From positions 1 to 64,000 of the forward strand of contig JASBTI010000034.1 in NCBI GenBank assembly GCA_030148505.1: DNA of 64,000 nucleotides, written 5' to 3'. Shown here piece by piece: positions 33,531 through 39,935 of the stretch; positions within the stretch are counted from its first letter, which is position 1, and every line of letters starts with the position of its first letter. Under the pieces are notes generated by a model that ran no database searches, was not told the origin of the DNA, and saw only the letters and a program-made list of their open reading frames with translations. The DNA comes from Rhodanobacter sp. Its GTDB lineage: Bacteria > Pseudomonadota > Gammaproteobacteria > Xanthomonadales > Rhodanobacteraceae. The position numbers were made by a program, and so were the translations under genes.

Positions 33531-36224
33531 ATGGATCAGCTCGACGATATCCTGAATCAGGACATCGACCCCACCGAAACCCGGGAATGGTTGGACTCAC
33601 TCGAGGCGGTCATCCACCACGATGGCACTGAGCGGGCGCACTTTCTGCTGGAGCGAATGGTCGATTCGACGCGCCGCTCCGGCGGCTATCTGCCGTTCGA
33701 TCCGACCACCGAATACGTCAACACGATTGCCCCGGCTAACGAGGCGAAGATGTCAGGCGACCCGGCGATGGAATGGCGCATTCGTTCGTTGATCCGCTGG
33801 AACGCGATGGCCATGGTGGTGCGGGCCAACCGCAAACCCGGTGAGCTGGGTGGGCATATCGCCAGTTTTGCATCGTCGGCAACTCTCTACGACGTAGGCT
33901 TCAATCATTTTTGGCGCGCGCCGTCCGACGATCACCCGGGCGACCTGGTGCTCCACCAGGGTCATTCCAGCCCGGGCATCTATGCGCGCTCGTTCCTCGA
34001 AGGCCGGCTGGCCGAGGATCAGCTCGACCTGTTCCGCATGGAGGTGGCTGGCAAGGGTCGCGCATTGTCGTCGTATCCCCATCCGTGGTTGATGCCGGAT
34101 TACTGGCAGGTGCCGACGGTCTCGATGGGACTGGGTCCGATCCAGGCGATCTACCAGGCGCAGTTCTTCAAGTATCTTGAGCATCGCGGATTGGTTCCCA
34201 AGAGCGACCGCAAGGTATGGTGCTTCCTCGGCGACGGCGAGACCGACGAGCCGGAATCGCTGGGCGCGATCTCGCTGGCCGGGCGCGAAGGTCTGGACAA
34301 CCTGATCTTTGTGATCAACTGCAATCTGCAGCGACTGGACGGTCCGGTGCGTGGCAATGGCAAGATCGTCCAGGAGCTGGAAGGTGAGTTCCGCGGTGCC
34401 GGCTGGAACGCGATCAAGCTGGTCTGGGGCAGCTACTGGGATCCGCTCCTGGCGCGCGACCACAAGGGTGTGCTGCGCAAGCTGATGATGGAAACCGTAG
34501 ACGGCGAGTACCAGGCCTGCAAGGCGTTCGGCGGCGCCTACACCCGGGAGCATTTCTTCGGCAAATATCCGGAGACGCGCGAGATGGTCGCCAACCTCAG
34601 TGACGACGATATCTGGCGGCTGAACCGCGGCGGGCATGATCCGCACAAGGTGTATGCGGCCTACCATGCGGCGGTGAATACCGAGGGTATGCCGACGGTA
34701 ATCCTGGCCAAGACGGTCAAGGGTTATGGCATGGGTTCGGCCGGGGAATCGCAGAACCCGACCCATCAGCAGAAGAAGCTGGATGAGGATTCGGTGCGCC
34801 ACTTCCGCGACCGCTTCCAGATCCCCATCCCCGACGATAAGCTCAAGGACGTACCGTATTACCACCCGGGCAAGGACTCGCCCGAGGTGCAGTACATGCT
34901 GGAACGGCGTCGGGCGTTGGGCGGCGCGCTGCCGCAGCGTCGTCGCAAGGCCGATGCAAAGCTGAAGGCACCGGAGCTTTCGGCGTTCGAGCAGATCACC
35001 AAGGGTACCGGCGAGCGCGAGATATCCACCACCATGGCCTTGGTACGTGGTATCAACCTCTTGCTGCGCGACAAACAGCTGGGCGAGCGCGTGGTACCGA
35101 TCGTGGCCGACGAGGCGCGCACCTTCGGTATGGAGGGAATGTTCCGGCAGATCGGCATTTATGCGCCGTTCGGCCAGAAATACCGGCCGCAGGACTCCGA
35201 TCAGCTGTTGTACTACCGCGAGGACCAGAAGGGCCAGGTACTGCAGCAAGGTATCAGCGAGGCCGGCGGCATGGCTTCGTGGATGGCGGCGGCGACCAGC
35301 TACTCGACCAGTAACCAGGCGATGCTGCCGTTCTTCATCTATTACTCGATGTTCGGTTTCCAGCGCATAGGCGATCTGGCCTGGGCTGCCGGCGATATGC
35401 GTTCGCGCGGCTTCCTGATCGGCGGCACTGCCGGGCGTACCACGCTCAATGGCGAAGGCCTGCAACATGAGGACGGCCAGTCGCACCTGATGTCCGGCGT
35501 GATACCCAATGTGAAGTCGTACGACCCCACGTTTTCCTATGAGGTTGCAGTGATCTTGCACGACGGCGTGCGGCGGATGATGCAGGAGCAGGAGGACATC
35601 TACTACTACATCACCGTGATGAACGAGAACTACAGCCATCCGGATCTGCCCAAAGGCAGCGAGGACGGCATCATCAAGGGCATGTACCTGTTCAAGGACG
35701 GCGGCAAGCCGAAAAAGGCGGAGCCGCGCGTACAGTTGCTCGGTTCCGGCACGATCCTGCGCGAAGTGATTGCGGCGGCCGAACTGCTGGAGAAGGATTT
35801 TGGCGTGAAGTCCGATATCTGGTCGTGCCCGAGCTTCATCGAGTTGCGCCGCGACGGCTTCGACGCCGAGCGCTGGAACCGTCTGCACCCGGAAGCGGAG
35901 CCGCGCGTGCCGTATGTCACCGGTCTGCTCGAAGGACGACAGGGGCCGGCGATCGCCGCCAGCGACTATGTGCGGGAGTTCGCCGACCAGATCCGCGCCT
36001 TCATGCCTGAGGGCATGCGCTACACGGCACTGGGTACAGATGGTTTCGGCCGTTCGGACACGCGGGCGCACTTGCGTGAGTTCTTTGAGGTCGACCGCTA
36101 CTGGATTGCCCATGCGGCCCTGGCAGCCCTGGCGAAAGAGGGCAAGGTCAATGCCAAGGATGTCAGCCGGGCGATCAAGGAATACAAGCTTGATCCGGAA
36201 AAACCGAATCCGCTGACCGTCTGA
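33531..36224 (+). CDS. aceE: Pyruvate dehydrogenase E1 component, homodimeric type
   Basis: An 897-residue E1 that decarboxylates pyruvate and acetylates the lipoyl group of E2. The thiamine-diphosphate motif is GDGETDEP ... INCN. The long homodimeric form shows GHIASFASSATLYDVGFNHF, HQGHSSPGIYARSFLEGR and the C-terminal MRYTALGTDGFGRSDTR. GGAG precedes the ATG. It is separated from aceF-lpdA in this window by about 15 kb of unrelated genes. The upstream gene is maeB on the same strand, 201 bp away. A terminator follows. Confidence 0.96.
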   Translation: MDQLDDILNQDIDPTETREWLDSLEAVIHHDGTERAHFLLERMVDSTRRSGGYLPFDPTTEYVNTIAPANEAKMSGDPAMEWRIRSLIRWNAMAMVVRANRKPGELGGHIASFASSATLYDVGFNHFWRAPSDDHPGDLVLHQGHSSPGIYARSFLEGRLAEDQLDLFRMEVAGKGRALSSYPHPWLMPDYWQVPTVSMGLGPIQAIYQAQFFKYLEHRGLVPKSDRKVWCFLGDGETDEPESLGAISLAGREGLDNLIFVINCNLQRLDGPVRGNGKIVQELEGEFRGAGWNAIKLVWGSYWDPLLARDHKGVLRKLMMETVDGEYQACKAFGGAYTREHFFGKYPETREMVANLSDDDIWRLNRGGHDPHKVYAAYHAAVNTEGMPTVILAKTVKGYGMGSAGESQNPTHQQKKLDEDSVRHFRDRFQIPIPDDKLKDVPYYHPGKDSPEVQYMLERRRALGGALPQRRRKADAKLKAPELSAFEQITKGTGEREISTTMALVRGINLLLRDKQLGERVVPIVADEARTFGMEGMFRQIGIYAPFGQKYRPQDSDQLLYYREDQKGQVLQQGISEAGGMASWMAAATSYSTSNQAMLPFFIYYSMFGFQRIGDLAWAAGDMRSRGFLIGGTAGRTTLNGEGLQHEDGQSHLMSGVIPNVKSYDPTFSYEVAVILHDGVRRMMQEQEDIYYYITVMNENYSHPDLPKGSEDGIIKGMYLFKDGGKPKKAEPRVQLLGSGTILREVIAAAELLEKDFGVKSDIWSCPSFIELRRDGFDAERWNRLHPEAEPRVPYVTGLLEGRQGPAIAASDYVREFADQIRAFMPEGMRYTALGTDGFGRSDTRAHLREFFEVDRYWIAHAALAALAKEGKVNAKDVSRAIKEYKLDPEKPNPLTV

Positions 36225-36998: not shown

Positions 36999-37730
36999 AT
37001 GAACCTGTCGTCCCGTTATTTTCTGTCCGCCCTGGCCTGCACGGGGTTGCTGCTGGCCGGTTGTTCACCGTCAGGTGCCCCCGCGCCGTCAGCGGCCCAG
37101 CAGCAGGCGCAGGCCAAAGCTGCAGCCGCAGCGCGCAACCTCGAGACCTACCGCCAGCTGCTGCGCATCGGCAACGATCAGATGGCGATGACCATGGGCA
37201 AGGACATCCTCAGTCGCTTCCCCGACAGCGCGGCGGCCAGCGAGGTGCAAAAAACCTTGCCGGCGATCGAAAAGCGTTATCGTGAAAACAGCGAGAAGCA
37301 ACGGTTGGCCGCACTGTGGTTGTATCAGGTATCGCCGATGGCGGGCGGTACGCAATCGACTGCCACTATCTACAGCAGTCAGCCTTCCGGCAACAGCCGG
37401 GTGCGACTGGTACTGCGTCGGCACACCAGTTGGGGCCTGAATGTATTTCTGTATGGCAGCGGCCATGGGTTCGTCTGTCGCGGCAACTGCACGGTGATTT
37501 CACATGTCGACGGCAAGCTGGAGCATATCAAGGCGTTTGCGCCCTCCACCGGCGAGCCGGCGTTGATGATCCGCGACGGCAAGGCCTTTATCGCCATGCT
37601 GAAGAAAGCCAGCAAGATCACCATGGACGTGACGTTGCGCGACAACGACAAGAAAGAGCAGCTGGTATACGAGGTCGGTGGTTTCAATCCCGATAAGTGG
37701 AAGACACTCGGAAAGCGCTCCAATAAGTAG
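36999..37730 (+). CDS. Predicted lipoprotein of unknown function
   Basis: A 243-residue protein starting MNLSSRYFLSALACTGLLL with lipobox LAGC, so it should be lipid-anchored in the envelope. An Ala/Gln-rich helical segment (AAQQQAQAKAAAAARN) and a short helical repeat region (GNDQMAMTMGKDILSRFPDS) come next. A C-terminal beta-rich domain contains two cysteines (GFVCRGNCTV) that could form a disulfide, and ends VYEVGGFNPDKW. The start was moved 76 codons in from the ORF-track start to the lipobox-bearing Met. No family recognised. The DUF6491 pseudogene follows. Confidence 0.72.
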   Translation: MNLSSRYFLSALACTGLLLAGCSPSGAPAPSAAQQQAQAKAAAAARNLETYRQLLRIGNDQMAMTMGKDILSRFPDSAAASEVQKTLPAIEKRYRENSEKQRLAALWLYQVSPMAGGTQSTATIYSSQPSGNSRVRLVLRRHTSWGLNVFLYGSGHGFVCRGNCTVISHVDGKLEHIKAFAPSTGEPALMIRDGKAFIAMLKKASKITMDVTLRDNDKKEQLVYEVGGFNPDKWKTLGKRSNK

Positions 37731-37750
37731 TAAATCTGTCGCGGGGTTTT

Positions 37751-38187
37751 ATGCTGCCAAGGCGTGCGGGCCTGGGTATGCGTCGATATGTACTGGTTAT
37801 AGGCGTGTCGATGGCTGCTTGCGGTGATCGCCCTCGACCCGCGAATGGCCGCCACCTGCAATGCAGCTGCCGAGTCACCAGTTTTCGGTTTGTCTATCTG
37901 GTATGCGGAGAGAGTCTCGGTGACGACCACCTGGTGGTTCGCACCTTGCCCTCGCGACTGGCTGCTTTCGGTGGAACCCCATTGCCGTGGGCTGAAAGAC
38001 GCGTGGCACTTCGGCGTTGCGGCGGGTTGCGGTGAACCAGGATCGCGTGGTGTTCGATGCTGGCGGACGTCGCGAGGCATGCAATATCGTGCGGATTCGT
38101 CCGGTAAACGTTGGCAAGTTGGTGTCGATGGGATCGGATCTTGCCGCGCAAGCCTATATGCCGCCGATCTATACTCTCCGACGCTGA
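37751..38187 (+). pseudogene. Frameshifted DUF6491-type lipoprotein gene, tandem paralog of the next gene
   Basis: Three reading frames together reproduce the intact neighbour at 38227. Frame 2 from ATG 37751 gives a lipoprotein-like start (MRRYVLVIGVSMAACG) and then FVYLVCGESLGDDHLVV, matching FFTLYSWESLGDSQLAV. Frame 3 gives RDWLLSVEPHCRGL, matching KAWLLDVSPHCLQL. Frame 1 gives VNQDRVVF and NIVRIRPVNVGKL, matching VNFDRVIV and REIRPIDVARL, and runs to the TGA at 38185. At least two frame changes are needed. The gene is either decayed or affected by sequencing errors. It accounts for the 496-bp gap between the flanking lipoprotein genes. Confidence 0.7.
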
Positions 38188-38226
38188 CCCGCGTTTGGCC
38201 ATCGATTCCGTCTCCGGGAGAGTGCC

Positions 38227-38676
38227 ATGAACAATGTTTTCACCCGTATTGCGATGTTGCTCACCGGCATGGTGCTGACTGGCTGTGCCAGCATGCCCTA
38301 TGCGCAACGCCTGCATCAGCGACAACTGGACTATGCGGCCGCCGCCGGCGCGCCAGTGAGGCATTTCAACTTCTTCACGTTGTATTCGTGGGAATCGCTG
38401 GGCGACAGTCAGCTGGCGGTTTATACCAAGCCGAACAAGGCCTGGTTGCTGGATGTCTCGCCGCACTGCCTCCAGCTTGGCTATGGCAACGCCATCGCGG
38501 TGACCTCGTATCTCCATCAGATCTCGGTGAACTTCGACCGGGTGATCGTGGCGGGTTCACCGGTGCCGTGCGCGATCAGGGAGATTCGCCCGATCGACGT
38601 GGCACGCCTGAAGACCTTGCAGCGCGAGCGACATCGTATCGAGAGTCGACCACGGGTACCCGGCGAAGGCCGATAG
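38227..38676 (+). CDS. DUF6491-like lipoprotein
   Basis: A 149-residue protein with signal sequence MNNVFTRIAMLLTGMVL and lipobox LTGC. The mature part contains the pattern seen in DUF6491 proteins of this order: FNFFTLYSWESLGDSQLAVY, AWLLDVSPHC, then a second Cys in PVPCAIREIRPIDVARL. The two cysteines may pair. GGGAGAG precedes the ATG. Function unknown. A broken paralog lies immediately upstream. Confidence 0.75.
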   Translation: MNNVFTRIAMLLTGMVLTGCASMPYAQRLHQRQLDYAAAAGAPVRHFNFFTLYSWESLGDSQLAVYTKPNKAWLLDVSPHCLQLGYGNAIAVTSYLHQISVNFDRVIVAGSPVPCAIREIRPIDVARLKTLQRERHRIESRPRVPGEGR

Positions 38677-38879
38677 CGCTGGTTTGGGCCAACTGGCATC
38701 TGCCAGGGGCCAGTGATCCCAACCGCCGTGCCATGCGTTGACCGGCACGTGGTGCGCTACTGCGTCGCTTGACCATTGGATTGGCGCCGACCGACCTCAT
38801 CTGGTCAGGTCAGACATGTCCCGCGAGACTGTCCGCACCGTGCCCCACCGAATTTCAAACACCACCCATGGAGCCATGC

Positions 38880-39935
38880 ATGATTCCCACACTCAGCTAT
38901 GCCGCCCACGCCGCCAGAGCCCCACTGGCCCCTTACCGCTTCGAACGACGAGAACCGCGCGATCAGGACGTCGTGATCGAGATCCTTTATTGCGGCGTCT
39001 GTCATTCCGATCTGCATACCGTACGCGATGAATGGAGCAAGGGGACGTATCCGATCGTGCCAGGACATGAAATCGTCGGACGGGTAACCCGTGTCGGCAA
39101 GGGGGTGAGCAAATTCAAGCCGGGTGATCTGGCCGGTGTCGGTTGCATGGTCGACTCGTGCCGCGAATGCGCCAATTGCCAGGACGACCTGGAGCAATTC
39201 TGCATGAACGGCGCCACGTTCACATATTCCGGCAAGGATCGTCACGACGGTACGCCGACCCAGGGCGGTTACTCAACCCAGATTGTGGTCGACGAAGCCT
39301 TCGTGCTGCGTGTTTCGGACAAGCTCGACCTCGCCGCAGTAGCGCCGTTGCTGTGCGCCGGCATCACCACGTATTCCCCGCTCAAGCACTGGAAGGTTGG
39401 CAAGGGCAGCAAAGTCGGCGTGGTCGGCTTGGGCGGCCTCGGCCATATGGCCTTGAAGCTGGCGCATGCGTTCGGCGCCAGCGTGGTGCAATTCACTACT
39501 TCGCCGTCCAAACGTGAGGATGCCTTACGCCTGGGCGCCGACGAAGTAGTGCTGTCGAACGATCCGGAACAGATGAAACAGCATGCCGGCAGCTTCGACT
39601 TCATCCTCGACACGGTCTCGGCGCCGCACGACTTGAATGGTTACCTGCAGATGCTCAAGCGCGATGGCACCATGACCCTGGTCGGCCTGCCGGACACACC
39701 GCCCACGATTCACGGCGGTGCCTTGATCTTCGGCCGCCATTCATTGGCCGGATCGCTGATCGGTGGCATCGCGGAAACCCAGGAGATGCTGGATTTCTGC
39801 GCGGAACACGGCATCGTCTCGGATATCGAGAAGATCCGCATCCAGGACATCAACGAAGCCTACGAGCGGATGCTCAAGAGCGATGTGAAGTACCGCTTCG
39901 TGATCGACATGGCTTCGTTGCGCGAAGCTGCCTGA
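38880..39935 (+). CDS. Zinc-dependent alcohol dehydrogenase (YahK/CAD type)
   Basis: A 351-residue medium-chain dehydrogenase that should reduce aldehydes with NADPH in the cytoplasm. Catalytic zinc ligands are Cys of CGVCHSD, His/Glu of PGHEIVG and a later Cys (LLCAGITTY). The structural zinc has four cysteines in DSCRECANCQDDLEQFC. The cofactor site is VVGLGGLGHMALKLA. This layout matches YahK and the cinnamyl-alcohol dehydrogenase group. ATG 38880 is preceded by GGAG at a good distance, while the longer ORF starts lack one. Substrate range unknown. Confidence 0.88.
   Translation: MIPTLSYAAHAARAPLAPYRFERREPRDQDVVIEILYCGVCHSDLHTVRDEWSKGTYPIVPGHEIVGRVTRVGKGVSKFKPGDLAGVGCMVDSCRECANCQDDLEQFCMNGATFTYSGKDRHDGTPTQGGYSTQIVVDEAFVLRVSDKLDLAAVAPLLCAGITTYSPLKHWKVGKGSKVGVVGLGGLGHMALKLAHAFGASVVQFTTSPSKREDALRLGADEVVLSNDPEQMKQHAGSFDFILDTVSAPHDLNGYLQMLKRDGTMTLVGLPDTPPTIHGGALIFGRHSLAGSLIGGIAETQEMLDFCAEHGIVSDIEKIRIQDINEAYERMLKSDVKYRFVIDMASLREAA

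Follow-up and report, generated by a model that had tools for sequence, protein, structure and literature searches.

The closest described systems are the DUF6491 (PF20101) lipoproteins and the frameshifted pseudogenes found in bacteria near an intact paralog. No paper naming DUF6491 was found in the literature searched, nor was a solved structure related to it by sequence. Its signal peptide and lipobox-like cysteine make it most likely that the intact DUF6491 protein is a lipoprotein of the outer membrane or periplasm. In the window, by which we mean the whole 64 000 nt stretch of Rhodanobacter sp. DNA analysed here, the sequence directly upstream of such a gene carries the motifs of the family in the same order (lipobox cysteine, ESLGD...T, WLL...C, VN.DRV and C-I..IRP..V) but, unlike the DUF6491 lipoproteins, it is spread over three frames, has lost half of the conserved columns and lacks six residues after the signal peptide. 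With frameshifted bacterial pseudogenes it shares relaxed constraint, indels and progressive deletion in a relative, differing from them in the particular gene and place alone. This remnant very probably represents a decayed, non-functional second DUF6491 copy beside its working paralog and under removal by deletion, that is, an ordinary pseudogene adjoining an intact paralog.

A profile search of the genome that contains the window (G000) found the intact gene at 38227 as its only DUF6491 gene. It is 87 % identical to its ortholog in Rhodanobacter sp. FW106-10_bin.24 (G012), the closest relative with a copy, indicating that the working copy has been conserved and the remnant has not. Five of the 45 genomes of the genus gave no DUF6491 match (G001, G008, G010, G020 and G064, with G020 just 82 % complete). 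In G017 the DUF6491 gene is apparently split across two contig ends, C47 and C375 (L004 and L090), an assembly break within the gene.

The surroundings of the remnant are ordinary chromosomal genes (Table 1). The upstream lipoprotein-like gene had no Pfam match above the cut-off and no NCBIfam match. A 786-aa open frame lies antisense to aceE on the minus strand (33753-36113) and probably arises as a side effect of high-GC codon use. An Rfam search of 37000-39000 gave no match, and no sigma-70-like promoter or terminator pattern was found in 37650-38950.

Table 1. Position of the predicted pseudogene and its neighbours in the window
Feature	Coordinates	Strand	Basis
Predicted pseudogene of a DUF6491 lipoprotein, in three frames from ATG to TGA	37778..38187	+	Frameshift-aware alignment; PF20101 on joined pieces
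Pseudogene piece 1: runs to the ESLGD...T motif and includes the signal peptide with its lipobox-like cysteine	37778..37957	+	Alignment
Pseudogene piece 2, second frame: WLLSVEPHC...	37959..38021	+	Alignment
Pseudogene piece 3, third frame: VAVNQDRV...CNIVRIRPVNV..., TGA end	38023..38187	+	Alignment; PF20101 18.6 bits
Intact DUF6491 lipoprotein gene	38227..38676	+	PF20101 142.8 bits, E=9e-42
Upstream lipoprotein-like gene, conserved position, synteny anchor	37026..37730	+	Adjoins DUF6491 in compared loci, 62-90 % identical
aceE	33531-36224
Zinc alcohol dehydrogenase family gene	about 38880-39935

The preliminary description had claimed that pieces in three frames match the intact protein in order, and frameshift-aware alignment confirmed this. 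When the intact protein was aligned to 37731-38226, residues 10-131 were covered with 44 of 124 positions identical (35 %) and a score of 138, whereas 24 stretches taken elsewhere in the window, on both strands, scored 37 ± 5 and never above 49. The ordered homology is therefore real and far above chance. No single frame of the remnant reached the PF20101 cut-off of 27.5 bits, including the 3' piece alone, whereas the three pieces joined with X scored 54.7 bits (E=1.5e-14). The remnant thus combines homology to a coding gene with a broken reading frame, as expected of a pseudogene. Its best start is an ATG at 37778, which opens a lipoprotein-like N-terminus (MRRYVLVIGVSMAAC), rather than position 37751 as first proposed. 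An ending in common with the intact protein had also been reported; this holds for the C-x-I-x-x-IRP-x-x-V motif and not for the C-terminal tails, which differ. When the whole remnant was used to search the genus at the DNA level, only chance-level short matches and no further copy were returned, and in blastn of 37001-38900 against relatives its middle part had no match.

Frame changes had been placed near 37865, 37935 and 38020. Frame breaks are present in the sequence, but only two are required, one near 37958 and one within about 38004-38025; the latter can be placed anywhere in that interval because a few residues are missing there. A change near 37865 is optional: with a cheap-frameshift setting a weak out-and-back excursion appeared at 37832-37873, which added little. 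The misleading ORF of 37824-38741 is present as described (GTG start, 305 aa) and overlaps the remnant.

Further evidence for decay came from G012, in which the corresponding intergenic stretch (L002 1932-2155) holds the same remnant with most of it deleted. It aligns to window positions 37731-37881 and about 38124-38226 with scores of 28 and 27.5, against shuffle maxima of 18.4 and 17.4. About 240-280 bases of the middle are gone, including the part that holds both frame changes, and the start codon is gone as well. The intergenic distance from the upstream gene to the first DUF6491 gene measures 499 bases in the window and 223 in G012, compared with about 60-175 elsewhere in the genus; G015 and G017 have no remnant and a spacing of about 100 bases. 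The matching remnant ends and the widened gap in G012 show that the extra copy is older than the split from G012 and that both genomes have since lost the gene.

The favoured scenario is that the upstream lipoprotein gene and the DUF6491 gene of today were once separated by an extra DUF6491 copy, presumably produced by tandem duplication. Selection on the extra copy would have been relaxed because the working copy remained adjacent, redundancy being the presumed cause, and it would have picked up substitutions and small deletions, together with two or more frame-changing indels. Deletion would then be removing what is left, with most of the middle already gone in G012.

As to how the extra copy arose, it may plausibly be a simple tandem duplicate of the gene now beside it. 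The best BLAST matches of the remnant were the window and G012 proteins (56 and 54 bits), which makes a local tandem duplication the simplest reading. The principal alternative is an older duplicate, the counterpart of a tandem pair that was kept in five Rhodanobacter genomes and lost elsewhere. This differs from the preferred explanation in the origin of the copy only, and the likelihoods given to the two are not exclusive. An intact tandem DUF6491 pair is indeed present at the same locus in G007 (L009), G016 (L012), G018 (L007), G061 (L065) and G062 (L057). In those pairs, however, the standard copy comes first and the diverged one follows downstream, whereas the window remnant lies upstream of the standard gene, and the second copies of the five species matched the remnant with at most 34 bits. 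DUF6491 copies of other genera were no closer; these comparisons covered copies other than the unlinked second DUF6491 copies of the genus. Diagnostic residues were divided: among 18 columns diagnostic of the clade formed by the window protein with those of G012, G015 and G017, three are shared by the remnant (the serine in ESLGD, and both P and H in PHC), four have the residue most frequent outside that clade, and the others have neither. In tree tests on the long-branch remnant, two groupings were compared, one with its own clade (p-AU 0.5) and one with the downstream copies (p-AU 0.25), and neither was rejected. Overall, an older duplicate appears unlikely, although it deserves some weight. 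A broader proposal, that the locus is a site of repeated DUF6491 birth and death (five species keeping the pair intact and two showing an extra copy in decay) at which the last part of the remnant has been retained as leader or promoter of the working gene, is more doubtful still.

The preliminary description had left the choice between decay after tandem duplication and indels in the assembly. If the gene were intact and the frame changes were sequencing or assembly errors, two errors would be enough, since each of the three pieces is open along its length, and the draft assembly comprises 49 contigs. A frame error alone would nevertheless leave a protein like those of its relatives, and this is not what was observed. 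Among 48 columns at least 90 % conserved in the 42 intact copies compared, the remnant keeps 23 while every intact copy keeps at least 42, so that the frame-corrected protein would still be without about half of the conserved positions, as well as the six residues after the signal peptide. Third-position GC is 0.62 in the remnant and 0.75-0.77 in the intact and upstream genes. Conserved residues and codon bias have thus both been lost, as expected under relaxed constraint, and the end branch of the remnant in the tree is 3.9 changes per column long, where the median is 0.08. Inspection of the sequence showed no long homopolymers at the frame-change sites. An assembly artefact would be expected to show frame errors in this assembly only and an otherwise conserved protein, which is not the pattern found; the independently assembled G012 has only a wreck at the same place, and the remnant therefore cannot be wholly an artefact of the window's assembly. 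Decay is clearly favoured over indel errors on the basis of the lost conserved residues, the lower third-position GC and the partly deleted G012 counterpart, and an intact gene is very improbable, although either one of the frame changes might yet prove to be an error. A functional two-part or frameshift-translated gene, as the open pieces in preserved order might suggest, can hardly be credited given two separate frame changes, the loss of conserved residues and a G012 counterpart that is largely deleted and without a start codon.

For annotation, a decayed second copy means that 37778-38187 needs the label of a DUF6491 pseudogene, and that no gene should be called for the ORF of 37824-38741. 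For the family, the two genomes would show gene decay at two stages, half-decayed in the window and, in the sister genome, with most of the copy deleted.
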